DNA of 64,000 nt from assembly GCF_020091585.1 (NCBI RefSeq), contig NZ_CP083583.1, positions 186,001-250,000 of the forward strand, given 5' to 3'. The stretch is from Kovacikia minuta CCNUW1 (lineage in GTDB: Bacteria; Cyanobacteriota; Cyanobacteriia; Leptolyngbyales; Leptolyngbyaceae). The notes below the pieces were generated by a model. It saw only the letters and a program-made list of their open reading frames with translations. It was not told the origin of the DNA and ran no database searches. Each line of letters opens with the position of its first letter. Within the stretch, counting starts at the first letter, position 1. A program made the translations under genes and the position numbers. Shown here piece by piece: positions 37,594 to 52,891 of this stretch.

Positions 37594-37840
37594 AAAAGTC
37601 GATGTTATTTAATTCTTGTTCCTTAGGAATGGTGTATAAATAAAATTCCAGGTTGAGGGAGAGGGGGAGAGGGGGGATATTTCTCAAAGAGTCCCCAAGC
37701 TCGGCTTTAAGGCGCTTGATTGAGATCTATCTCTCGGTTCCTGGTTCCTGGCGCACAACCCTAGCTTTTTTTCCCATCTTTTTGTTTCAGATTCGGGAAT
37801 CGGTGATAGGATTGAACTATAAGTTTTGGTTAATCAGCTA

Positions 37841-38530
37841 ATGCCGAAAGTTAAAGTTGCTGATTCAACGGTGCTGCCTGAAAAGTGTCCTAAAATTCTG
37901 GCGTTCGCCAATCAAAAAGGGGGATCAGGAAAATCAACGGGGGCAGTTCATGCGGCGGATTGGTTTATTCAAAAGGGCCGTTCCGCGATTTTGGTTGACG
38001 CGGATGGGCAGCAAAGTTCATCCAGTTGGCTGAAAGATTTAGAGTTACCCTGTAAGGTCATTAGCGATCCAGAAGCGCTGTTTGACGAATTGCCCAGGTT
38101 GGCAAAATCCTATGATGTGGTTGTGGTCGATGGACCTGGAAATGCAAGTGAGGTGACAAAGGCAGTTTTAATCCGATCCGATCTGATCTTGATCCCCTGT
38201 CGAGATTCAATGATTGACCTGGCAAGCACAGGTAAAATTGTGCAGTTTGTGCGGCAGGCAAAGGAGATTCGAGGCGGGCTACCGATCGCAGCGATCTACC
38301 TCAATGCGGTTAAAGATAATACGATTCTGTTGCGTGAAGCCAGAGAGGCTTTACAAAGTGGAATTATCCCACTGCTGAATACGACACTTCCTGATCGTCA
38401 GTGCATTAAGGATTCGCCAGGTCAGGGTAATACCGTATTCCGAATGAAGGGAGAAGCTGCCAGGACAGCAGCGCGTGCATACACCAAACTCTTTGTTGAA
38501 GCCTTGAAGTTATTTGACTCTGAATCATGA
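37841..38530 (+). CDS. parA: ParA family ATPase
   Basis: 229 residues from ATG 37841 (an in-frame TTG lies at 37826). The deviant Walker A motif is NQKGGSGKST (residues 24-33) and Walker A' is LVDADGQQ, with Walker B VVVVDGPGN. It is a small ParA/MinD-type ATPase that binds DNA non-specifically and moves ParB-bound cargo (chromosome, plasmid or protein assembly). Its stop overlaps the ParB start by four bases (ATGA). No N-terminal helix-turn-helix, unlike the larger type Ia ParA proteins. Confidence 0.93.
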   Translation: MPKVKVADSTVLPEKCPKILAFANQKGGSGKSTGAVHAADWFIQKGRSAILVDADGQQSSSSWLKDLELPCKVISDPEALFDELPRLAKSYDVVVVDGPGNASEVTKAVLIRSDLILIPCRDSMIDLASTGKIVQFVRQAKEIRGGLPIAAIYLNAVKDNTILLREAREALQSGIIPLLNTTLPDRQCIKDSPGQGNTVFRMKGEAARTAARAYTKLFVEALKLFDSES

Positions 38531-39522
38531 CTACTCGCCGAAAACTTAAGGATGCGATCGCCAGTAACGAAGAGTTAAGCTTCGTTTTTGGTCAATCGAC
38601 TGCGGAAAAAATTGTTCAAACCGTAGAAGCGGTTCAAGAACAGATGATTCCATTTCGTTCCATCCTTTGTACCTTCTCATTTGTTCCCGACCAAAAACCG
38701 GTTCGCCATTACTACGATGCAGGTGAACTGGAGCAATGGGCGCTCAATGATATTCAACCCAATGGAATTCGTTCCCCCCTTTGGGTACGATCGCACCCGA
38801 TCGTATCAGGAAAGTATGAACTGGTTGCAGGTCTCCGACGTTTGAAAGCAGCCGAGATCCTTGGGTTGGAATTCCTTCCAGCTAAGATTTTTGACTGGGA
38901 TGACCGGACCGCTTTTCACGCTGCCATATCAGAAAATTCAAACCGACGAGATTTTAGTGCTTTAGAAGAACTGGATAACACTTTACGGTTGCTCGAAATT
39001 CAGTTAGGGTACGATACCGATGAGGTTGTTAGCTTTCTCTACCGAATGAACAACGCAACCAAAGGAACCACTAACCAAAACGTTTTGGTTAGCGAAGAAG
39101 CTGAACTGGTACAGCAAATCTTTAATGCCTTTGGGCGAATTACCTGGCAATCTTTTGTTGCAACCCGACTTCCGCTTCTTAAGAAGCCGAACGACATTTT
39201 GGATGCAATTCGGCAAGGCAAGATTCAGTATACGAAAGGAATTTTAATTGCCAGTGTCAAAGATCCTGATGCTCGTCAGGATCTCTTAGAAGAAGTAATC
39301 GAAGCTTCATTACCCCTGTCTGAAATCAAGCAACGGATTAAAGCCTCAAACGATGGCACTCAGCGACCGACGGGATCTGCTGCAAAATCAGTTAGCCTAC
39401 AGCAACGTTTGACGCAAACCGTTCAGATGGCAAAAAGGAATAAATCCCTCTGGCATGATCCCAGTAAAACCCAACAGATCGAGCAGGTGATTGGTCAATT
39501 GGAGGCAATTGTGATGAGTTAG
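38527..39522 (+). CDS. parB: ParB/Spo0J family partition protein
   Basis: 331 residues. The N-terminal CTPase-type domain reads NGIRSPLWVRSHPIVSGKYELVAGLRRLKAAEILG, with the GLRRLKA box (variant of GERRxxA), and ENSNRRDFSALEE. A central helix-turn-helix region is RITWQSFVATRLPLLKKPNDILDAIRQGK. Residues 182-189 (TNQNVLVS) are encoded by the 22-bp palindrome 39071-39092. It should bind parS and work with ParA. Translationally coupled to parA. Confidence 0.9.
   Translation: MTTRRKLKDAIASNEELSFVFGQSTAEKIVQTVEAVQEQMIPFRSILCTFSFVPDQKPVRHYYDAGELEQWALNDIQPNGIRSPLWVRSHPIVSGKYELVAGLRRLKAAEILGLEFLPAKIFDWDDRTAFHAAISENSNRRDFSALEELDNTLRLLEIQLGYDTDEVVSFLYRMNNATKGTTNQNVLVSEEAELVQQIFNAFGRITWQSFVATRLPLLKKPNDILDAIRQGKIQYTKGILIASVKDPDARQDLLEEVIEASLPLSEIKQRIKASNDGTQRPTGSAAKSVSLQQRLTQTVQMAKRNKSLWHDPSKTQQIEQVIGQLEAIVMS
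39071..39092. promoter_or_regulatory. Candidate parS site 2 inside parB (perfect palindrome)
   Basis: Core AACCAAAACGTTTTGGTT (39073-39090), extended by CT and AG into a 22-bp perfect palindrome within the coding sequence. Identical core to 37418-37435. Confidence 0.7.
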
Positions 39523-41271: not shown

Positions 41272-43465
41272 CTAAAATTGCAGGTTGGGTGGAAACAGCC
41301 GTTCTGCCAGGAGATGGGCAATAAATTGGTGAAAGGCGGCAGCTAAATGGGGATGCTGCTTCTGCATGAATTGCAGGTTTTGGCGCGTGAGGCAATAAAG
41401 GCTGCTGTCTTTATCGGCGATCGCGGTCACGGAGCGGGGGGTGTTTTGGTAAAATTCGGCTTCTCCTAACACGGTACCGGAACTGAGCCTTTGTAAGCGC
41501 TGGGGTGCCTCGTCCTGAGACTGACTCAAAATACTCACTTGACCATTTTCCAGGAAGTAAAGGGTATCGGATGCTTCTCCAGGCTTAAATAGGATGCAGC
41601 CAGCCGAGAGCTGGAGGGGTTCTAGATAATGCATGAATTGGCGTCCCTCCTCTTTCTGGAGGAGCAGCAGGTCGGAGATTTGCAGCGCCAGGGGCAAGAA
41701 TCGTCGTCGTCGCAGGTGGGTGGCTTTGAGGATCTGTTCTTCGCACCATTCAATGCCGCGATCGAGATCGGGAAAGCGATGGCAGATCCCATCTTCAACC
41801 TGAATGCAATCATTTCGAATCAATTGGTGTTCCAGATCGGGGTGAAGGTGGGTAAAAACCAGGTGCAACTCTTGCTGTTGCGCCAGACGGCGAAGTTTAA
41901 CAAAGCTCGATATTGCCGATGAATCTAACCCACTGATCAGATGGAAATCAAATACCAAATACCGAATGGGCGTTCTTGCGCGTGTCAGTATATGGCGCAC
42001 ACGGTTGAGGAAAGTGTTGGAAGTGCCAAAAAAGATATAGCCCTGAAGGCACAGAATATAAATCTGGTAGCCTGCCTGGCGCACAAATACGTTGCTGTTG
42101 AAACGATCGCTTGAAGTTGCTGGGGCGATTGACCCCGAATTTTTCATCGTGAATCAGACCTGTCCGGCTGTAATTGACAGCAAAGATCAGGCAGGCGATC
42201 ACCAATCCGGCTCCCACCCCTTGCAAGAAGCCTGATGCCGCAATAATCAGCAGAATTAGCACAATCAAGCCATATTCAACGATAGGCAATCTTTTGCGGG
42301 CGTTGTAGAGCCATTCAATCAGAGAGCTGAGACCAATATAGAACAGGAGTCCACCCAGAAGTGGTTTGGGCACATAGGCGATCATCTTCGTCCCAAGCAA
42401 CAAAAAGGTGCCACAGAGAAGACTGGCAACAATTCCCGATAGCCGACTGGTAGCGCCAGCGGCGTGGTTCAGGATACTCCGGTTAAACGAGAGGTAACCG
42501 ACCATGCCACCGCCGAGTCCCGCTGCCAGATTAGCGATACCACAAGCTTTGAGTTCGCGGTTGATGTCTATATCCTGCTGATTGGTGAGTTCCAATCCGG
42601 TGGCATTGAGCAGAGTGGCGATCGCCAGCACCGTCATCATCGCCATCAAACTGGTGGTTTCTCTAAACAAAATCTGCCAATTGATCTGTGCTAAAAAGGA
42701 CCATCCGGTTATGGTTTCCTGGGAGTTGATGGCTCCAACTGAGAAGAGCCAACCCTGCTCCCGTGCCTGTTCCAGGGAAATGCCCATGCTACTGAGCAGC
42801 AGATAGGTGAGTACCAGTCCTGCCACCAAGAAAGCAGGCAGGACAAAGTAATCGTTGAAGCGGTTGAGAACGCATTTGAGCAGCACTGCAAACCCCAACG
42901 CCGGTAACCAATGGATCAGTGTGTCGAATTGAAATAAATGGGTGAGATTGCCAAATCCTAAGGAAACTCCGGTGGCGACGGTAAAGCCACCGCGAATAAT
43001 TAGCCACCCGGCTCCAGCCAGGAACCCGCCAATTACCGGATAGGGGACGAAGCGAACGAAATGCCCTAGCTGAAGCTGATTTAGCCCGATTAAAAATAGC
43101 CCGGAAAGAATGGAACTGCCGACCAGCATTGCCCAAACCGTTGGTAGAATGCTGGCTGATCCGTCTTGACCAATTAATTGGGTCGTGATGGAGCTTGCCA
43201 TTAATGCCAGGATGGCAGATGTGTTGGAGTCTGGGCCAGCGATCGCGAAGCTGAAAGAACTGGTGCAGGCGACAGCAAACGCGATCAAAGCGGCACTGAT
43301 TAGCGCACTATTGATACCAACCGATAGATGCGTAGCCAAATTCCCCGAAAAGATGAGGGCGGCAAAGGAAAGGCTGTAGGTAACCGAAACCAGCCCGGAG
43401 ATTAAGCCTGCCACGATGTTTGGCAGCAAAGCTCCTGTCTGAAGTCGAGGCAGACGGTTGAACAT
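41272..43465 (-). pseudogene. SulP family anion transporter with STAS and cNMP-binding domains, frameshifted
   Basis: The membrane part (43465 to ~42150; LPNIVAGLISGLVSVTYSLSFAALIFSG, PDSNTSAILAL) and the STAS-cNMP part (~42147-41272; ILCLQGYIFFGTSN, VFDFHLISGLDSSAISSFVKL) are in different frames. Removing one base from TTTTT at 42140-42144 joins them into 730 residues, matching the 735-residue intact paralogue at 45057. Alternatively, an ATG at 42147 could make a separate STAS-cNMP protein. Start chosen at ATG 43465 because it equals the N-terminal length of the paralogue; a GTG lies at 43486. Role: anion transport regulated by STAS and nucleotide. The slr1659-like gene ends directly upstream. 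Confidence 0.85.
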
Positions 43466-43476
43466 GGAGGCAATTG

Positions 43477-43821
43477 CTAGTCCCACGTCAGTTCTAAGCT
43501 AGGCATCAGGCGTTGCAAATTTTTGAGCGATCGCTCCTGCCAGGGAATTGTAGTTGAACCGTTGACAATCAGCTTGATATCTTCTTTGTCGCGCACCTTC
43601 AGAACAAATTTTGACAAGACATTAATTCCTGAGCTATTCAGAAATTCAAGTTCCTGCAAATTGAGTTTGAGGATAGCGGGATGATCCTCCAGCACCTGAT
43701 CCAACAACTGCACAATTGGTGCGTAGTCTTCCATCCCTGCCAGCCGTAAGGCTCCTCGGCAAAACACGGTTTGCATGGTTTCGTCGTACTGAACGCTATA
43801 CTTCTCAGATGTAATCTCCAT
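43477..43821 (-). CDS. STAS-domain regulator, slr1659-like
   Basis: 114 residues from ATG 43821; the frame is open to 43971, but the extra part is C-rich repeat-like. MEITSEKYSVQYDETMQTVFCRGALRLAG starts the STAS fold, and LKLNLQELEFLNSSGINVLSKFVLKVRD contains the SSG phosphoacceptor-type Ser. The short STAS protein beside a separate ATPase-fold gene matches the slr1659-slr1658 pair of cyanobacteria, analogous to an anti-sigma-factor antagonist (inference). Its neighbours also have STAS domains. It could switch partners by phosphorylation. Confidence 0.82.
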   Translation of the reverse strand: MEITSEKYSVQYDETMQTVFCRGALRLAGMEDYAPIVQLLDQVLEDHPAILKLNLQELEFLNSSGINVLSKFVLKVRDKEDIKLIVNGSTTIPWQERSLKNLQRLMPSLELTWD

Positions 43822-43975
43822 TCCCTTGCGGTTCCTACTGCTTAAAGTTTTTGTCCCATCGCTCGCATCACTTACAGCCAGTTTCATTTGGATTAACCAC
43901 ACCCCACACCCCATACCCCACTTCACAAGACTGTGGCTTATTGATCTGAAAACCGCTGTAGTCAACGACATTCCC

Positions 43976-44557
43976 CTACATCATCAAGTAGACCATGGTG
44001 GTTACTGTAATAATTTCCGGGTCTTCCTGAACCGTTTCAAATTTCCACCCGATTTTTGCTAGATAATCACTCATCATGGTTAATAACCCCAGACCAGAAC
44101 TATCGGGGCTATCCTCCTCCGCATTCTTTTCTAACTGACGAATCAGCAAATCGCCAGGATCAGCCGTCATAATTTCTTGAATAAACGACTGAAAATGATC
44201 GACTGTTTGCGCCTTAAGACTATTGGTTGCAAGGAAAACAAGGCTATCGGTATGCAGTTGCAGGGTAATGCTGATGGGATATTCCGTTGTGGAATCGTTA
44301 AACTTCATTGCGTTTTCGAGTAATTCATTGGCAATGAAGCTGACAGCACTTTTGACCTCAACCTTGCTGTTGATTTTTGAAACAGTGTCCTGGCTTCTGG
44401 GGAAAAACGCAGCAAAGTAGTCTGCCATAAAGTCAGCTGACAACCCGTTATTGTGCCAGCGTTGTTGCAAGGGAGCAGAACTGGGTGAAAAAACGATCGT
44501 CAAGTACTCTTTGCTAACAGGCAAATGTTCACTGAAATCTCCAAGGATTTGAACCAT
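43976..44557 (-). CDS. ATPase-fold regulator, slr1658-like
   Basis: 193 residues. The HATPase-like N box is SFIANELLENAMKFNDS, and the later DSSGLGLLTMMSDYLAKIGW is the G-box region. The fold is that of anti-sigma-factor-type kinases, but without a classical histidine kinase DxGxG. With the STAS gene 150 bp downstream it forms the slr1658/slr1659 pair, so it probably binds and phosphorylates that protein. It is divergent from the intact SulP gene across ~500 bp. Confidence 0.85.
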   Translation of the reverse strand: MVQILGDFSEHLPVSKEYLTIVFSPSSAPLQQRWHNNGLSADFMADYFAAFFPRSQDTVSKINSKVEVKSAVSFIANELLENAMKFNDSTTEYPISITLQLHTDSLVFLATNSLKAQTVDHFQSFIQEIMTADPGDLLIRQLEKNAEEDSPDSSGLGLLTMMSDYLAKIGWKFETVQEDPEIITVTTMVYLMM

Positions 44558-45056
44558 GTATGTAGCCCTCTACTGCTACCTACGTTTGAATTGACACTGA
44601 AGGAATCATAACACCAACATTGTTATTTCTTGGTTCGTTCAAGGGATAGAGGGATCAAACAGGGACGCATTTGCCTGCGATCGGTAGCAATTCTACTTGA
44701 AGGATGAAAAATGTCTTGCTGCCAGCCGTCCGCCATTAACCCAGCATTCTTTGTTTATCCAGATCGGGCAGTGACAACCGGATTGCATAGCGTGCGTCAG
44801 GCAACGTCTAACACCCAGGTTAACCGTGGTTTCGGTGCGGTACGCTGACGCTAACAGCGGCTTACGAGGGAATATCCTAATCTTTTGTTATCGGGGTAAT
44901 ATTTTGAGATTGCTAGATTCCCAAATGGTTTAATGTTTCTAACAATTTAGTTAGCGCATCCCTAAAATACTGAGATTGGTGCAATTATTTGAAATCAGTG
45001 CCATTACGCGACGATAATTAGTATCAATTTTTACACTTAATCCTGGGGAGGGGGCG
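44558..45056. other. Divergent intergenic region, slr1658-like and sulP genes
   Basis: 499 bp that should contain both promoters. At ~44795-44868 there is a weakly matching, degenerate version of the 163-bp element's hairpin (GTGCGGTACGCTGACGCTAACAGC). Nothing else recognisable. Confidence 0.4.
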
Positions 45057-47264
45057 ATGGTTTCAGCTTTAAAGCAGGAGTTGCAAATACAGTCTTGGCT
45101 ACCCAGTGTCGCGGTCGGTTTAATCATGGGAGTCACAATGACGCTGACCGAAATCATTCCGATGGCGGCGTTGGTGTTTTCTGGTCAACTAGAACCGTTT
45201 TTGCCCACGGGAATTAGCATTACCCTGCTGAGTGCGGCGATCGTTGGCATCGTCCTGGCATTACGCAGTTCATTCGTGGGCTTGCTGGCATTTCCCGTTG
45301 CCGAACAGGTGACGATTTTAGGCACAATGGCAGCGGCGATCGCCCGCTCAATGTCTGCTGCCAGCAGCGAGGAGGTCTTGCTGACCATTGTGGCAGCAAT
45401 TGTCGTCTCCTCCCTATTAACAGGGGCATTTCTGTATATTCTAGGACGGTTCAAGCTGGGGGAACTGATCCGCTTTTTACCCTATCCGGTCGTGGGCGGT
45501 TTTTTGGCGGGTTTGGGCTATCTAATCACCGCTGGGAGTATTCATGTGCTGACCCGCGAAACGCTCAGTTGGGTAACATTGGGTTCCTTTCTTCAAGGCG
45601 ACATGGTGTTGCGTTGGGTGCCCTCTTTGATTTTTGCGGTGTTGCTGTTGGTCATGACTCGTCGCTACCACCATTTCGCGATTTTACCAGGGAGCATGGC
45701 GGCGGCGATCGCGCTCTTCTACCTGGTGCTATTCCTGACCCACACGTCGATTGCGCAGGCATTGCAGACGGGCTGGTTGCTGGGGCCTTTTCCCGAAAAC
45801 CATAGCTGGAAACCATTCAGTGCGATGGTTCTGACCCAGGCAAACTGGTCTGCGATCGTGCCGCAACTGGGTAGTATTGCGGCGCTGATGTTGATCACGG
45901 CACTGTCGCTACTGTTGATCTCCAGTTCGCTAGAGCTAATTACCGAGCGAGATATGGATCTAAATCGGGAACTGGAGGCAACTGGAATTGCCTGTCTGCT
46001 GTCCGGTCTACTGGGTGGTATGGTGGGAAGCCATGCAATTACCTCCATGTTGGTGGAGAAGATGGGCGGCAAGAGCCGTCTGGTGGGGGTTGTCGTGGCG
46101 TTGATCTATCTCATCTTTCTGCTGGTCGGCGTGTCCTTTCTGACCTTCTTCCCCAAGCCTGTTTTAGGTGGGCTGCTGATGTTTACGGGATTGGATTTGT
46201 TGGCAATGCAATTGTATGACGGCTGGTTTAAGCTACCCAAGACCGATTACGGGATTGTGCTGCTGATTATGGCGATCGTTGTGATGTTCGGCTTTGTCGT
46301 CGGTGTTGTGGTTGGTTTGGTCATTGCCATTATCCTATTTGCGCTTAACTACAGTCGGGTCAGTGTTGCCCGTTATAGTCGATCGGGAGCCAGCCTCAGC
46401 AGCCATCGTAAACGTCCCCCCAATCAGGAACGGATGCTGCACGAGGAGGGGGAGAAGACTCATGTTTTAACCCTCCAGGGATTCATCTTTTTTGGCACTG
46501 CAAATCAGCTATTCACTCAAATCCGTCAGCGAGTGCACACCCCCAATTTGCCCGCGCTCCAATTTCTGGTGTTGGATTTTCGGCTGGTTACGGGGCTGGA
46601 TTCTTCAGCCGTGGTTAGTTTTGTCAAACTGAAGCAATTAGCCCGCAAGCAAGACTTTCGAATTGTTTTTGCTGATGTGCTGCCAGTGGTGGAGAAGCCG
46701 CTCCGGCAGGGTGGTGTGGTGGTACTGGACGATCCGCAGTGCAAGGTGGTGTTCGATCTCGATCGGGCAATGGAGTGGTGTGAGAATCAGTTATTAGAAG
46801 CCAGTAAGTACCGCCGCACCCGATTTTTACCAATGGTCATGCAATTAAAAACTTACCTGACGGCTGATAGCAACCAGGTTTCGACCCTGATGAAATATCT
46901 GGAGTTGATGACATTGGAGGTCAACGACTATTTGTTTCATCAAGGAGATGCAGCAACGGCACTCTACTTCATCGAGTCGGGAGAAATGAGCACGCTCATG
47001 AGTACGGAAGGCAAGGATCGACGGGTGCAAACATTGGGGGCTGGAACCACGGTGGGGGAAGTGGAGTTTTATACCCAGGTTCCCTATAAAGTAGCCGCGA
47101 TCGCCGATAAACCCACGCGCCTCTACCGCCTTTCTAGTGAAGATTTACAGCGCATGCAGCAGGAACAACCCGAAGTGGCAGCGATTTTTAGCAATTGGAT
47201 GAATGGGCTTTTGGCAAATCGTCTCACCTATTTGCAACAGGAAATTACCAGTTTGACCTGCTAA
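45057..47264 (+). CDS. SulP family anion transporter with STAS and cNMP-binding domains
   Basis: 735 residues; GGGGAGGGGG precedes the ATG. Residues ~15-440 hold 10-14 membrane helices (SWLPSVAVGLIMGVTMTLTEIIPMAALVFSG, LLGGMVGSHAI). A STAS domain (~463-570; THVLTLQGFIFFGTANQ, LVLDFRLVTGLDSSAVVSFVKLK) is followed by a cyclic-nucleotide-binding domain (~610-725; LEVNDYLFHQGDAATALYFIESGEMSTLM, TVGEVEFYTQ). SulP proteins move bicarbonate, sulfate or related anions; here transport may be gated by cAMP. The same C-terminal module occurs in the broken paralogue at 41272 and in the HD protein at 48362. Confidence 0.93.
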   Translation: MVSALKQELQIQSWLPSVAVGLIMGVTMTLTEIIPMAALVFSGQLEPFLPTGISITLLSAAIVGIVLALRSSFVGLLAFPVAEQVTILGTMAAAIARSMSAASSEEVLLTIVAAIVVSSLLTGAFLYILGRFKLGELIRFLPYPVVGGFLAGLGYLITAGSIHVLTRETLSWVTLGSFLQGDMVLRWVPSLIFAVLLLVMTRRYHHFAILPGSMAAAIALFYLVLFLTHTSIAQALQTGWLLGPFPENHSWKPFSAMVLTQANWSAIVPQLGSIAALMLITALSLLLISSSLELITERDMDLNRELEATGIACLLSGLLGGMVGSHAITSMLVEKMGGKSRLVGVVVALIYLIFLLVGVSFLTFFPKPVLGGLLMFTGLDLLAMQLYDGWFKLPKTDYGIVLLIMAIVVMFGFVVGVVVGLVIAIILFALNYSRVSVARYSRSGASLSSHRKRPPNQERMLHEEGEKTHVLTLQGFIFFGTANQLFTQIRQRVHTPNLPALQFLVLDFRLVTGLDSSAVVSFVKLKQLARKQDFRIVFADVLPVVEKPLRQGGVVVLDDPQCKVVFDLDRAMEWCENQLLEASKYRRTRFLPMVMQLKTYLTADSNQVSTLMKYLELMTLEVNDYLFHQGDAATALYFIESGEMSTLMSTEGKDRRVQTLGAGTTVGEVEFYTQVPYKVAAIADKPTRLYRLSSEDLQRMQQEQPEVAAIFSNWMNGLLANRLTYLQQEITSLTC

Positions 47265-47353
47265 GTGAACAACGGTAATGCCTGGAAATGCCAGACTAAT
47301 AGGATAGCTTGAGGGGTGCGATTATAGGGAAGTATTCGTCTTACCCACTGACT

Positions 47354-48280
47354 ATGGCTGCTTCATTCCTATCTCCGGTACAGCAAGGGAGAAATGGCTG
47401 GAAACAATATCTAGCAGGAATTCTCCTTCTGGTTCTTATGCCGATACTTACCTTGGCGATTTTCCTGATTTTTCTACTTTTGAGCTTGTCAATATTCTCT
47501 CCCGATTTTCGGCAAATTCTGAAAAATAAGGGGGGGATAGAACAGTTGCTAAATACACAGTTCTATGGATTCCCTTTTCTATATTTGTTCTTATTGGGAG
47601 CATTTTCTACTCTATTTTTATTCACCCTGGTCTTTGTTTTGAGAAGGATTCATCATCGAGATATTCTCACTTTATTGGGATCGGATGCTTCTACTGTCGA
47701 TTGGCAAAGAGTGGCGCAGGGATTTGCTGTTGAGTTTGGGTTGCGATCTCTGATACTTTTCAGCATTTATTTAATCAACCCTTCGCGTTATCGCTTCGCC
47801 TTCAGCGCTTCAGAATGGTTAATTTCCCTCCCTTTTTCACTGTTACTTGCAGGTTACAGTTCACTGGTCGCCTGCCTTTTTTTCTACGGCTACCTGTTCC
47901 AGGGAATGAGTTGTCTGATTCCAAATCCTGTACGTCTGATAACAGTTTATGGCTTGATTCTGGGAACTTTACAGGCGCTTTCCGTCAAGAATCCCGTTGA
48001 TTGGATTGGAGCCGTCTTCTTTCAGATATTTCTGCTATGGATAATTTTGAAAGATAAAAGACTTGAGGTCGCTATTGGCTTAATAACGGCAGGCTCTTTT
48101 TTCTCCTATACCATTTGGAGATCGGTCAGCCGTCCGCTTCAGACTCCAACAATTCTAGTACGCTCTGCCGAGTCTCTTTCACCTGTTATTTATCTGGTAC
48201 TGGCTGTAATTGAAGCTGTTTTATTCTATGTCATCTGGTTTTATGTAATCCACCGAGACCATTTGCGATCGCCTGAATAA
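47354..48280 (+). CDS. Multi-spanning membrane protein of unknown function
   Basis: 308 residues from ATG 47354. About seven to eight hydrophobic segments are visible (ILLLVLMPILTLAIFLIFLLLSL, FLYLFLLGAFSTLFLFTLVFVL, LISLPFSLLLAGYSSLVACLFF). IHHRDILTLLG and FFYGYLFQG recall the layout of CPBP-type membrane proteins, but the diagnostic EExxxR is missing, so this is at best a distant, probably inactive relative. It lies between the intact SulP and HD genes on the same strand. Role not known. Confidence 0.65.
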   Translation: MAASFLSPVQQGRNGWKQYLAGILLLVLMPILTLAIFLIFLLLSLSIFSPDFRQILKNKGGIEQLLNTQFYGFPFLYLFLLGAFSTLFLFTLVFVLRRIHHRDILTLLGSDASTVDWQRVAQGFAVEFGLRSLILFSIYLINPSRYRFAFSASEWLISLPFSLLLAGYSSLVACLFFYGYLFQGMSCLIPNPVRLITVYGLILGTLQALSVKNPVDWIGAVFFQIFLLWIILKDKRLEVAIGLITAGSFFSYTIWRSVSRPLQTPTILVRSAESLSPVIYLVLAVIEAVLFYVIWFYVIHRDHLRSPE

Positions 48281-48361
48281 ATTGATAGATCCGCACTCAC
48301 AAACTTGTTGATAACCTGCTCTTATTATGAGGGTGTGCCCTCCTACTGAAATTGTTAGATT

Positions 48362-50689
48362 ATGGAACCTTTTTCCAGCATCCATTTGCCAGGAGCTTTC
48401 ACTTCCTACATCGAAGCAAACTTTTATGGCAAAGTAACCGAACAATCGATGTTGGAGACGATCGTCAATAATGAAAGTTTCCTTGCTGAACCACTCAAGC
48501 ATGTTGCGCTCTACTCAGATCATGGGATTGTGCATGGGCGAGACATTGCAGCGAAAATTGAGCAGGTCTTGCACCAGATCAATGGGTTGCTGATTTCGAA
48601 GCGGCAAGGCAATCGGCTGGAGTTTATGTTGGGCTACGGTGTCATGCTGGCGTATCTGCATGATATTGGGATGCGCGACTTTTCTGCTTTTGGGCGAGTG
48701 ATGCACCCGGAGTTTGCTGCCCAACTGGTTTACACTCCAGAATTTGATCCGCTGGTCGATTTGCTCTGGCAGGAAAATTCTGGCAATGTAGCGTGGCGGT
48801 TGAGCAATTTATCGATGGGTGGCAAATTGCAGCAAAATCCTCAACTGGTTCTGCGGGAAATGTTGTCCTTATCAATTGCCCATAGTAAAAGCAAAATTTC
48901 AGTTGCACTTTTAAACGATCCACTTGAGTTACAGAAAACTATTCAAACCTGTCTTAGCACCAATTTGCATACGCTCTACCATCAACAGCAGATTGCCAAA
49001 ATTGAACGGAAACTTGCCACTGAATCCAATCTAGATATAGAAACATTAGCAACACTTAAGCACCAATTAGAAATAGCAAAGACATCGCGATCGCAATGGT
49101 TAAAGCAAACAGAGCATGCAACCCATAACCCTGACCTCGATCGCTATTATCAAAATTTTGCTCAAACATCATTTCAATGGCTGACCAGCTCAGATCCGGC
49201 ATTGCAATCATTAGCAGTAGATGTGATCGATACATTGCGAGTGCTGCGTTGTGCCGATGCGTTGCGGCAGCGTGGACAACGGTTTAGGACTTCAGCAGGC
49301 TATGAAGTCTTTGTCAATCAGCATACGGCGAATGCGGTTTATGGGCTGCGATCATCTGATGGGAGTAAACAGTTTCTTCTGGAGGGGAAAGACCCGATCG
49401 CCGCTGGAGAAGCCAATATTACCAGTTGCGTTCTGGATCGGGAGGGCGATTTGCGGGTGTCGTTTGATCGGGGTTCATTTTCCAGCCCAGAAGCCATCCA
49501 GTGGGCAGTTCACAGTGCTGCAATTGTAATCAATGATATTCAGGCAGATGTGATCGGTAGTTTTCAGCGTTCAGTTGGTCTGGATAGCGCTTCATTCGGG
49601 CAAAAGCAGCCAGATACCATGAAAATTTTGATTGAAGGTGTGGACGATAATCCCACATTTGCCCCAGCAGTGTGTGCAGAACTGGGACAACTTAACCCTG
49701 TGATCGCCGATCGTTGCTGTCCAGTTACCTCCCTTCAACATGCCGATTTGGTAGAGGTAGAGCGTTATCTGGCAGGCATTCAACCAACCTGGAATCGGCA
49801 GGATCAGCAATCGATTCTGAATCAGATTGGGCGATCGGGGCAAAAAGTTGATCATCTAGATCTGCCAAATGCCTTTCGCGATATTAAGATTGTTACCCTC
49901 AAGGCTGGAGAGATATTATTTGAGGCAGATTCCCCTGGAAGTTTTGTTTACATTTCAATGGGGGAAGGCTTGAGAAGTTTTCCCTCTGGGGGCTATCAGG
50001 CAGCCCCAGTTCAAGCCTGGATGCAGATTGGTGATACGGCTGCAATTAAAGGCTCTCGACGAAATGCGCGGGTCATTGCAGAACAACCCACCCATCTGTT
50101 GATGATTCCGAAGCAGCCTTATCTCCAGTATTGGTATAACCCCTACACCGTTGATGAATTTATCCAATTATTTGGGGGAACTCACCAATCTACCCTGGAA
50201 CGGCGGCACCTGCTGCCAGCGATCGCGGTCTATAAAAAGTTCATTGGAAAAACCCGTCGCCATCGCTATTTGCCGTTGAGCCTTCGGCTTAAAACCGTGT
50301 TTCAAGATCCGGAGCAGGTTGCTCCGTTTATCACCTATTTGGAACAACGAGATGTCCGAGTCGGAGATTGTCTGTTTCGTCAGGCTGATCCGGCGGATGC
50401 CATCTACTTTTTGGAGTTGGGACAAGTTCACACGGTGGTTGAGTTCATTAGCGGACAGCCCAAATCGGTACAGTCCTATGAATCGGGCGCATTGATTGGA
50501 GAAATTGATTTTTATACTCAGTCTGGTTATCAAACAACGGCTGTGGCTCAATGCGATAGCCATCTCTACTGCTTGACCCGCGCAGCGCTGCATCGGATGC
50601 AGCAAGCCCATCCTCAAACGGCTTTAGCATTCAGCAACATGCTCCTCTCCCTGGTCGCAAACCGCTTGGTTGAAGTCGCCAAACCTTAA
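48362..50689 (+). CDS. HD-domain protein with two cNMP-binding-like domains
   Basis: 775 residues. Residues ~45-110 have an HD-type phosphohydrolase pattern: YSDHGIVHGRDIA and AYLHDIGMRDF, with a second part VIDTLRVLRCADALRQRG typical of the end of the HD/metal-dependent hydrolase. Around 500-600 is a first cNMP-like barrel (LKAGEILFEADSPGSFVYIS), and 640-770 a second one close to the SulP module (RYLPLSLRLK, LFRQADPADAIYFLELGQVHTVVEF, GEIDFYTQ). It could hydrolyse a nucleotide or sense one. The substrate is unknown. The shared tail ties it to the transporters beside it. Confidence 0.82.
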   Translation: MEPFSSIHLPGAFTSYIEANFYGKVTEQSMLETIVNNESFLAEPLKHVALYSDHGIVHGRDIAAKIEQVLHQINGLLISKRQGNRLEFMLGYGVMLAYLHDIGMRDFSAFGRVMHPEFAAQLVYTPEFDPLVDLLWQENSGNVAWRLSNLSMGGKLQQNPQLVLREMLSLSIAHSKSKISVALLNDPLELQKTIQTCLSTNLHTLYHQQQIAKIERKLATESNLDIETLATLKHQLEIAKTSRSQWLKQTEHATHNPDLDRYYQNFAQTSFQWLTSSDPALQSLAVDVIDTLRVLRCADALRQRGQRFRTSAGYEVFVNQHTANAVYGLRSSDGSKQFLLEGKDPIAAGEANITSCVLDREGDLRVSFDRGSFSSPEAIQWAVHSAAIVINDIQADVIGSFQRSVGLDSASFGQKQPDTMKILIEGVDDNPTFAPAVCAELGQLNPVIADRCCPVTSLQHADLVEVERYLAGIQPTWNRQDQQSILNQIGRSGQKVDHLDLPNAFRDIKIVTLKAGEILFEADSPGSFVYISMGEGLRSFPSGGYQAAPVQAWMQIGDTAAIKGSRRNARVIAEQPTHLLMIPKQPYLQYWYNPYTVDEFIQLFGGTHQSTLERRHLLPAIAVYKKFIGKTRRHRYLPLSLRLKTVFQDPEQVAPFITYLEQRDVRVGDCLFRQADPADAIYFLELGQVHTVVEFISGQPKSVQSYESGALIGEIDFYTQSGYQTTAVAQCDSHLYCLTRAALHRMQQAHPQTALAFSNMLLSLVANRLVEVAKP

Positions 50690-51428: not shown

Positions 51429-52146
51429 TTAATAAGGTTCAATCTGATTCGGTTGAATATGAATTTTTGTCCAGTTTGATCGGTATGCGTGATGATTCAT
51501 CAAACGTTGGTATGTTCCACTATCAATGAAGATAAAGATACCTAAACCAATCAAAATAAAGGGAACGAGCCGATGACCATAACAGGTTAAGGCTTGGGAC
51601 AGGAGTGGATGTTGGGTGAGTTGATCTGCAATCGCACACCAGATCCCAATCATTATTAAAAAAACGCCCAGAATCACGATGAGTTCCCTCAGGCTGCTGT
51701 TCGCGAAGAGTGGAATATAAATCCCAATATTATCCCCACCATTGGCAATTGTGACGGCTGCAAGCCTGGTAGGTCATGGGATGGAAAATACTCAGAAGAA
51801 ACGATCGCCAGGTTGGGGGGTGAGAGGAGCTTTTCTGTGCTGGAGAAATCGTTTGAATGGCGGGTTCATCGGTTTCCTGGTGCCAAAGTTGGTGAATTCC
51901 GATCGCGATCGGGAGCAACCCTAACCATCCCAACCACTCCCTGGGGATGACGATACCTCCCAAAAATCCTGGCAAGCTGGCAACAATTAAACCCAAAAAA
52001 CCGAGGTATTGCCCTGTGACAATCTGCCGCCGCCGCAGTGTTTCGCCTGCTCTGGCAAAGAAAAGCGTCAGAATTACGATATCATCCACATTTGTTGCAA
52101 CAAAAGCAGTGGTCCCTGTGATGATTGCTTCTACAACCCAGTTCAT
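51429..52146 (-). pseudogene. CadD-like cadmium/cation transporter, frameshifted
   Basis: ITGTTAFVATNVDDIVILTLFFARAG and GQYLGFLGLIVASLPGFLGG (N-terminal part) and the C-terminal FILIGLGIFIFIDSGTYQRL are in two frames. Removing one base from AA at 51762-51763 turns the ACSRHNCQWWG end into AAVTIANGGDNIGIYIPLF and gives 238 residues, close to the 245-residue paralogue just upstream. The family exports cadmium or other small cations (LysE/CadD superfamily). As written, the gene yields a truncated protein of 138 residues. Confidence 0.83.
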
Positions 52147-52153
52147 CCGTTGA

Positions 52154-52891
52154 TCATCGATCCGCGATCTGCCTGTCCAATTCTGACTTCATTATCGCTG
52201 TCCGTTCCGCATTTCTAAACAGCATCAGGAGAACCAATCCTCCAATCACCAGGGCCAGGGTTGCCAAACCCCGATTTTCTAAAGTGCGGCTGTCGATCAG
52301 AATCAGCATGCCTAACCCAATCAGCACGAATGGCACCAGTTGGTTGCCGTAGCGTGTTAGGACATCAGCAATGACAGGCAATCGAGTCAGTTGAAAGGCA
52401 GTGTAGCACCAGATCCCAACCAGAGAAAAGAACACACCCAGAATTACCAGCAGTTCTTCCCAGGCACTATTGGCAAACAAGGGAATGTAGATGCCGATAT
52501 TATCTCCGCCGTTGGCAAAGGTCACTGCGGCAACACCATACGCCTGTGGGGATAGGAAATTAGCGTACCAGGGGCGCTCTGCCCAATTAATCTCCTGTAA
52601 CTCTACGGGTGTGTCTTCTTCCTGGTTGAGGAAGCGATTGAGTCCGATCGCGATCGGTACCAGCCCCAGCAACCCGATCCAGGGGCGGGGAAACAGCGCA
52701 CTCCCAAAGAACCCAGGCAGACAGGCAACTACCAAACCCGCAAATCCCAGGTATTGCCCTGCGATGATGTGCCGTCGGCGAAATAGGGTATTGATCTGGG
52801 AGAAGAAGAGTAGCAGGATCAAAATGTCATCCAGGTTTGTGGCGACGAAGGCAGTGATACCGGCTGAGAAAGCAGTGATCAGGTTACTCAT
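52154..52891 (-). CDS. CadD-like cadmium resistance/cation transporter
   Basis: 245 residues. Six membrane helices, with TAFVATNLDDILILLLFFSQI at the N terminus (NxDD motif of the family), GQYLGFAGLVVACLPGFFG, ANGGDNIGIYIPLFAN and FVLIGLGMLILIDSRTL. It is the intact partner of the broken copy ending at 51429; the two starts are only 8 bp after each other's stop, so this is a tandem duplication. Overlaps the APC permease by 8 bp (translational coupling). Cargo is inferred from family: Cd or similar. Confidence 0.88.
   Translation of the reverse strand: MSNLITAFSAGITAFVATNLDDILILLLFFSQINTLFRRRHIIAGQYLGFAGLVVACLPGFFGSALFPRPWIGLLGLVPIAIGLNRFLNQEEDTPVELQEINWAERPWYANFLSPQAYGVAAVTFANGGDNIGIYIPLFANSAWEELLVILGVFFSLVGIWCYTAFQLTRLPVIADVLTRYGNQLVPFVLIGLGMLILIDSRTLENRGLATLALVIGGLVLLMLFRNAERTAIMKSELDRQIADR

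Follow-up and report, generated by a model that had tools for sequence, protein, structure and literature searches.

The window analyzed here is a 64,000-nucleotide stretch of Kovacikia minuta CCNUW1 (positions 186,001 to 250,000 of contig NZ_CP083583.1), and the locus in question, at 41272–50689 of the window, holds six genes for transporters and putative signaling proteins. On the minus strand lie the genes of an slr1658-type protein (43976–44557), an slr1659-type STAS protein (43477–43821), and a SulP transporter, SulP1 (41272–43486); on the plus strand lie those of a second SulP transporter, SulP2 (45057–47264), a multi-pass membrane protein of 323 amino acids (47309–48280), and a protein with an HD domain (48362–50689), hereafter the HD protein. 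The window is part of a 1.21 Mb contig of an 8.56 Mb genome in three contigs (G000; genomes and fetched loci are denoted G and L throughout). It carries a ParA/ParB-like gene pair at 37826–39522 and no tRNA gene in its 64 kb, which fits a large extra replicon as the inferred setting of the locus.

SulP2 carries the Pfam domains Sulfate_transp, STAS, and cNMP_binding (cNMP, cyclic nucleoside monophosphate), with a DSSA motif in the STAS domain, and its orthologue in genome G039 (L033) is 81% identical. The SulP1 gene has the same plan, spread over two frames; an N-terminal frame (41948–43486) encodes the membrane domain (Sulfate_transp, E 3.9e-36; 81% identity to the G039 orthologue up to the break), and a C-terminal frame (41272–42147) encodes the STAS and cNMP_binding domains (73% identity). 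Alignment with this orthologue, which is intact at 736 amino acids, places one extra base near 42089 (42085–42092, minus strand), outside any homopolymer. The genes originally predicted here are real, except that SulP1 is not one reading frame. The divergence from the orthologue at codon positions 2 and 3 is 0.08 and 0.47 on one side of the break and 0.11 and 0.48 on the other, and this dominance of third positions in both halves resembles that of the intact SulP2 and HD genes. Because the codon-position bias is strong on both sides, the shift would be recent, an assembly error, or tolerated. Programmed frameshifting was also considered and rejected, as the orthologue reads through in a single frame and no obvious slippery run is present at the site (CAACGTATTTGTGCG). 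A decaying locus, with SulP1 a pseudogene and the whole set being lost, would account for the frameshift and for genome G011, in which frames are broken and SulP1 is missing; we regard decay as very improbable, given the codon bias on either side of the break, the intact SulP2 and HD genes of the window, and the draft state of the G011 assembly (87% complete), whose breaks may be errors.

The two SulPs and the HD protein end in one and the same kind of module, as the original prediction had claimed. It is about 145 amino acids long and occupies 41272–41712 in SulP1, 46806–47264 in SulP2, and 50252–50689 in the HD protein; the three copies are 39–42% identical (BLAST E 1e-31 to 1e-37), a similarity far beyond chance, and each matches Pfam cNMP_binding (PF00027) above the cut-off, with E from 1e-16 to 1e-20. 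In the genomes that were searched, SulP-STAS proteins and cyanobacterial members of the HD family carry the module, and no unrelated protein was found to do so. In a tree of 26 modules, the six HD modules fall on one side of a single branch among the SulP modules (support 79/76), a grouping that is consistent with, and not proof of, a single acquisition of a SulP-type module.

The module alignment showed that the copies differ at the two key residues of the phosphate-binding cassette. Glu and Arg are both kept in SulP1, in its orthologue, and in widespread sister SulPs; the SulP2-type modules, like both SulP modules of genome G113, keep Glu and have Tyr or His for Arg (Tyr in SulP2 of the window); and the HD modules likewise have Tyr or His for Arg (Tyr in the window), with Glu changed as well in three other cyanobacteria. 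In the central cNMP-fold domain of the HD protein (49781–50161), read by eye, Glu is absent from every member and Arg is kept in most, including that of the window. Since only SulP1 keeps both residues, a uniform nucleotide-responsive module is too simple a description, and the alignment points to SulP1 as a probable sensor and to the others as altered copies. The proposed control by a cyclic nucleotide is thereby weaker than first stated: a link to cyclic AMP (cAMP) is plausible in the case of SulP1; for the SulP2 and HD-protein modules it is doubtful, and for the HD enzyme indirect.

These substitutions could also mean that the cNMP-like modules have lost nucleotide binding and serve in dimerization or docking, with transport under STAS phosphorylation alone and the HD enzyme recruited to another task, for example to hydrolyze some other phosphate ester. 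The Arg changes in SulP2 and the HD modules and the absence of Glu from the central domain of all HD members speak for such a loss, as does yeast Vsb1, in which the equivalent domain is indispensable although nucleotide binding by it is considered unlikely; the retention of Glu and Arg in SulP1 and its common sisters speaks against it, and so do the varied cNMP-domain genes, sometimes accompanied by cyclase-like genes, that adjoin HD genes in other phyla. On balance, we find a general loss of binding rather doubtful.

The HD protein consists of the HD domain (48371–49300), a middle domain, the central cNMP-fold domain, and the C-terminal SulP-type module. Its two separate cNMP stretches confirm the HD-cNMP-cNMP architecture that had been described as unusual, and the central one, in an AlphaFold model, matches the cNMP domains of PKA and PKG (Z ~13). 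Neither Pfam HD nor Pfam HD-CE matched the HD domain of the window, which was identified from invariant residues and fold; among 12 aligned members of the family, one relative reached HD-CE at E 0.013, below the cut-off, and one reached HD at E 0.11. All 12 share D53-H54, H58, D61, H100-D101, H115, E117, H174, and D299, and the invariant H58, H100-D101, and D299 would supply the H...HD...D residues of a metal site. We take H54/H58, H100-D101, and D299 to parallel the HNxxH, HD, and D residues of PDE4.

The HD part (469 residues) was folded alone, with a mean predicted local distance difference test score (pLDDT) of 90; a search with the full-length model was filled by cNMP domains. The VIA re-alignment list for the HD model consists almost wholly of class I phosphodiesterases, the best with a Z of 9.5 over 214 residues at 5.9 Å, although for a helical bundle such a value, below 10, may reflect a common arrangement. 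Searching the PDB by sequence with the HD profile gave only a weak cNMP match, to PycTIR; hhalign found no credible match between this profile and one HD-CE protein; and a search for PDEase_I over 15 genomes found no match anywhere, controls included, and is hence uninformative. Given its neighbors, a cyclic-nucleotide phosphodiesterase is a plausible and the most economical reading of the HD domain. The suggestion that the protein is a nucleotide hydrolase thus stays plausible, in that the modeled fold is nearest to class I phosphodiesterases, with the reservation that the match is weak. We consider that the HD protein is probably a nucleotide phosphohydrolase of some kind; that it acts on cyclic mononucleotides is a narrower proposal, which we rate as somewhat less likely than not.

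Full-length matches to the HD protein are patchy, occurring in 7 of 390 sampled cyanobacterial genomes from three families; in a sample of 400 Chloroflexota genomes, the query genome alone had one. Scanning genome contigs revealed relatives in Anaerolineae, other Chloroflexota, a Kapabacterium, and a Fulvivirga, which are 41–48% identical over the first 470 residues. Because these relatives stop after the central cNMP-fold domain or bear another tail, the SulP-type module was apparently added in cyanobacteria. The HD proteins of L055 and L057 have C-terminal tails that are alike and unrelated to the SulP module, perhaps TerB-like by eye. The literature searched for SulP with STAS and cNMP domains, or for class I phosphodiesterases with an HD domain, describes no such locus, and it seems to contain no description of the HD-cNMP family or of its SulP-type module. 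Separately, a single long frame of G035 (L172, 559–3828) apparently encodes a caspase-like region followed by HD-CE and GHKL-ATPase-like regions.

HD loci with their neighborhoods were compared in 11 genomes. G039 has the order HD, SulP2, divergent gap, slr1658, slr1659, SulP1, which is that of the window minus the 323-amino-acid gene, and its proteins are 74–89% identical to their window counterparts; beyond its HD gene lie genes for a PAS-SpoIIE phosphatase and a ParA-like protein. G011 has the order of the window with a class III cyclase-like gene in place of SulP1, and it is its HD and SulP2 genes that are broken. The 323-amino-acid membrane protein, which lies between SulP2 and the HD gene, matched no family in Pfam and NCBIfam scans, had been overlooked in the first description of the locus, and is without a counterpart at this place in G039 and G011. 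In G113, HD, SulP, and SulP genes stand in tandem, and genes for slr1659, slr1658, and a kinase-GAF-SpoIIE protein are found about 9–10 kb away; in G174, the HD protein is shorter, has no C-terminal module, and is encoded about 6 kb from SpoIIE, slr1658, and slr1659 genes. The expected co-conservation is thus borne out, with the genes kept together in G039 and, apart from SulP1, in G011, and rearranged in G113. With the module confined as described above, the original prediction withstood the refutation that had been set for it. A further SulP-cNMP gene in G039 (contig C355; L038, 1–4938) adjoins a cyclase-like gene and a glycosyltransferase gene; the glycosyltransferase is 70% identical to the product of 41197–39977 in the window, which may belong to a wider neighborhood.

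It is also conceivable that these genes are neighbors and not one system, with slr1658/slr1659 serving another target, the SulPs being two paralogues, the HD enzyme being independent, and their closeness coming from shared transfer on a large extra replicon. Such independence would suit the patchiness of the HD protein, the many slr1658/slr1659 pairs without SulP neighbors, and the SulP-cNMP genes that occur alone or with other phospho-relays. What makes it unlikely in our judgment is that the gene order is kept in G039 at that level of protein divergence and re-formed differently in G113, and that the tail of the HD protein is of the SulP type. Taken together, these results indicate that the locus is real, co-conserved, and partly understood, with transporters and a phospho-switch of known kinds.

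Genes for cNMP-domain proteins lie beside the HD gene in 8 of the 11 genomes and encode SulP-STAS-cNMP (as in G390), TLC-HEAT-cNMP, POPDC-cNMP, or small cNMP proteins. The chance of finding such neighbors within 5 kb is about 1e-10 if the loci are independent, 6e-8 when each family contributes a single genome, and 9e-6 when the non-cyanobacterial genomes alone are counted; these values use genome-wide cNMP counts as background and a 5 kb limit picked after the loci were seen, and they are rough guides. Cyclase genes within 5 kb of the HD gene (2 of 11; P 0.013) are only suggestive. Class III cyclase-like genes stand beside slr1659 in G011 and G154, in the latter following the slr1658/slr1659 pair, and beside the SulP-cNMP gene of L038, whose cyclase-like protein is 68% identical to that of G011. 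The cyclase-like proteins of L034 (12482–13828, minus strand) and L038 (2016–3299, minus strand) keep both metal Asp residues and the Lys/Asp columns. In an Anaerolineae genome (L056, 6678–15051), the HD gene lies between two genes for TLC/MFS-HEAT-cNMP transporter-like proteins of 1100 amino acids, with a cyclase-AAA-TPR gene adjoining this group.

The free STAS protein and its ATPase-fold partner were recovered by NCBIfam at scores above the curated cut-offs. The frame at 43971–43477 matches slr1659_superfam (NF047705; 159.9 bits, cut-off 100), and its start is probably at 43821, because orthologues begin there; 44557–43976 matches slr1658_cyano (NF052618; 273.8 bits, cut-off 200) and, weakly, SiaB_fam_kinase, suggesting a SiaB-like kinase fold. 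The two genes are adjacent in the window. Alignments showed an invariant NSSG motif, the presumed phospho-acceptor, in slr1659 proteins and a conserved ANELLEN box (N-box), typical of the SpoIIAB/GHKL fold, in slr1658 proteins; at the position corresponding to NSSG, the SulP STAS domains have DSSA. A SpoIIE-type phosphatase gene adjoins the slr1658/slr1659 pair in 8 of 16 fetched neighborhoods, and stands beside the HD gene in G039 and beside slr1658 in G174 and G113. The main contig of G000 has a second slr1658-slr1659 pair together with a SpoIIE gene (L151), which could act in trans. In G017, a SulP-cNMP gene has response-regulator, histidine-kinase, and ParA-domain genes as its neighbors; the phospho-relay to which SulP-cNMP proteins are linked may therefore vary from genome to genome. 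Family membership and conserved motifs give good support to control by phosphorylation, the second arm of the original prediction. That the switch acts on the slr1659 protein we consider likely; that it also acts on SulP1 and SulP2 appears evenly balanced.

The solute is a different matter. Bicarbonate or sulfate uptake, for which tests were first suggested, is not indicated: SulP2 and SulP1 score 76.2 and 48.1 bits with the NCBIfam BicA model (cut-off 880), and 133.4 bits was the score with TIGR00815 sulP (cut-off 380.45), membership of the superfamily being clear from Pfam. Known proteins of the SulP-STAS-cNMP type carry nitrate or cationic amino acids, according to the accounts given in PMC13160679. 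LtnT of Synechococcus elongatus is described as a SulP nitrate transporter with a C-terminal cNMP/RmlC-like domain (Maeda et al. 2006, cited in PMC13160679, PMC12596568), and yeast Vsb1 (YGR125W) is a SulP-STAS-RmlC-like cationic amino-acid transporter whose activity depends on its C-terminal domain, which is considered unlikely to bind nucleotide (PMC13160679). The two precedents show that modules of this kind are important in transport and that family membership does not reveal the solute; nitrate, by analogy, would be a guess for SulP1 and SulP2.

Collectively, these observations lead us to favor, tentatively, a system in which SulP transporters under SiaBC-like phospho-switching are joined to a cyclic-nucleotide-linked HD hydrolase with an acquired SulP-type docking or sensor tail. 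The slr1658-type kinase would phosphorylate the slr1659 protein at its serine motif, and perhaps the SulP STAS domains at DSSA as well; removal of the phosphate would fall to a SpoIIE-type phosphatase whose gene lies elsewhere; and the phosphorylation state would set SulP activity through STAS contacts. A cyclic nucleotide would bind the SulP1 module, whereas in SulP2 and the HD protein the altered modules would serve mainly for docking or oligomerization. Held at the transporters in this way, the HD enzyme would end the signal locally, its most likely activity being that of a metal-dependent cyclic-nucleotide phosphodiesterase; docking of its tail to the SulPs seems to us only slightly less probable than its absence.

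Several observations, besides the caution that attaches to the fold score, weigh against this model. SulP1 is frameshifted in the window genome itself, and canonical phosphate-binding residues are absent from the SulP2 and HD-tail modules. For the enzyme, none of the 12 HD members matched PDEase_I (PF00233) at E up to 1, Foldseek returned no significant match for the HD domain (the best, at E 0.46, being a PDE4A), and the DHGxxHxxRV motif is not specific, a similar one being present in an HD-CE protein. No cyclase gene stands beside the window locus, and the cyclase-like proteins of L034 and L038 have Thr at the transition-state Asn column, which leaves their activity uncertain. Most fetched slr1658/slr1659 pairs are not beside a SulP gene, and no SpoIIE/PP2C phosphatase gene lies beside the window pair, a departure from the same-locus arrangement of SiaABC.

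If the favored model is true, three layers of control, namely STAS phospho-switching, cyclic nucleotides, and solute transport, are joined in one locus. To our knowledge, assignment of the phosphodiesterases responsible for terminating cAMP signals in cyanobacteria and Chloroflexota is poor, and a rare HD family that stands beside cNMP-domain membrane proteins in several phyla, with a SulP-type module where it stands beside SulPs, is a concrete and testable candidate. A bolder extension, which we hold to be somewhat unlikely, is that HD-cNMP proteins form a previously undescribed bacterial family of cyclic-nucleotide phosphodiesterases (Cyanobacteriota, Chloroflexota, Kapabacteria, Bacteroidota) working beside cNMP-domain membrane proteins, of which the cyanobacterial enzyme took up the SulP module and so came to form a local signal-ending complex on the transporters.

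Outside the six genes, two adjoining frames for CadD-like membrane proteins lie at 51730–52891 (minus strand) of the window, the second shortened and apparently broken. A search of PHROGs gave no match, and among PLSDB plasmids there was neither a close DNA match nor an HD protein, SulP-cNMP relatives being the only ones found.

In Pseudomonas, the phosphorylation of SiaC, a protein proposed to control a cyclase, is set by SiaB and SiaA (PMC7647112). The window shares with the SiaABC partner switch of Pseudomonas aeruginosa a SiaB-like kinase fold and a small STAS phospho-protein, and relatives of the locus have the SpoIIE/PP2C phosphatase as well; it differs in that no phosphatase gene adjoins the pair and that the presumed output is a transporter and not a diguanylate cyclase. 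Both window proteins belong with slr1658-slr1659 of Synechocystis by their NCBIfam scores; in most of the fetched genomes, such a pair has no SulP neighbors. The HD protein resembles class I phosphodiesterases such as PDE4 and PDE10, which make up most of its closest-fold list, in its H...HD...D site and, by a weak match of the model, in its helical HD-type fold; it differs from them in having no PDEase_I match, 9–14% identity in structural alignments, a coiled insert, and C-terminal cNMP domains. With HD-CE (PF24391) it shares a DHGxxHxxRV-type motif and the HD pair, although only the one sub-threshold member scores and the HD-CE proteins in these genomes have other partners. Vsb1 has the same domain plan as SulP1 and SulP2, in a eukaryotic, vacuolar protein whose domain is thought not to bind nucleotide. 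As for LtnT, the accounts in the citing papers describe no HD partner with the same tail; as a cyanobacterial SulP with a cNMP/RmlC-like domain after STAS, it is by domain plan the precedent for both transporters, a plan that SulP2 has in one protein and SulP1 has across the frameshift, whole in its orthologue.

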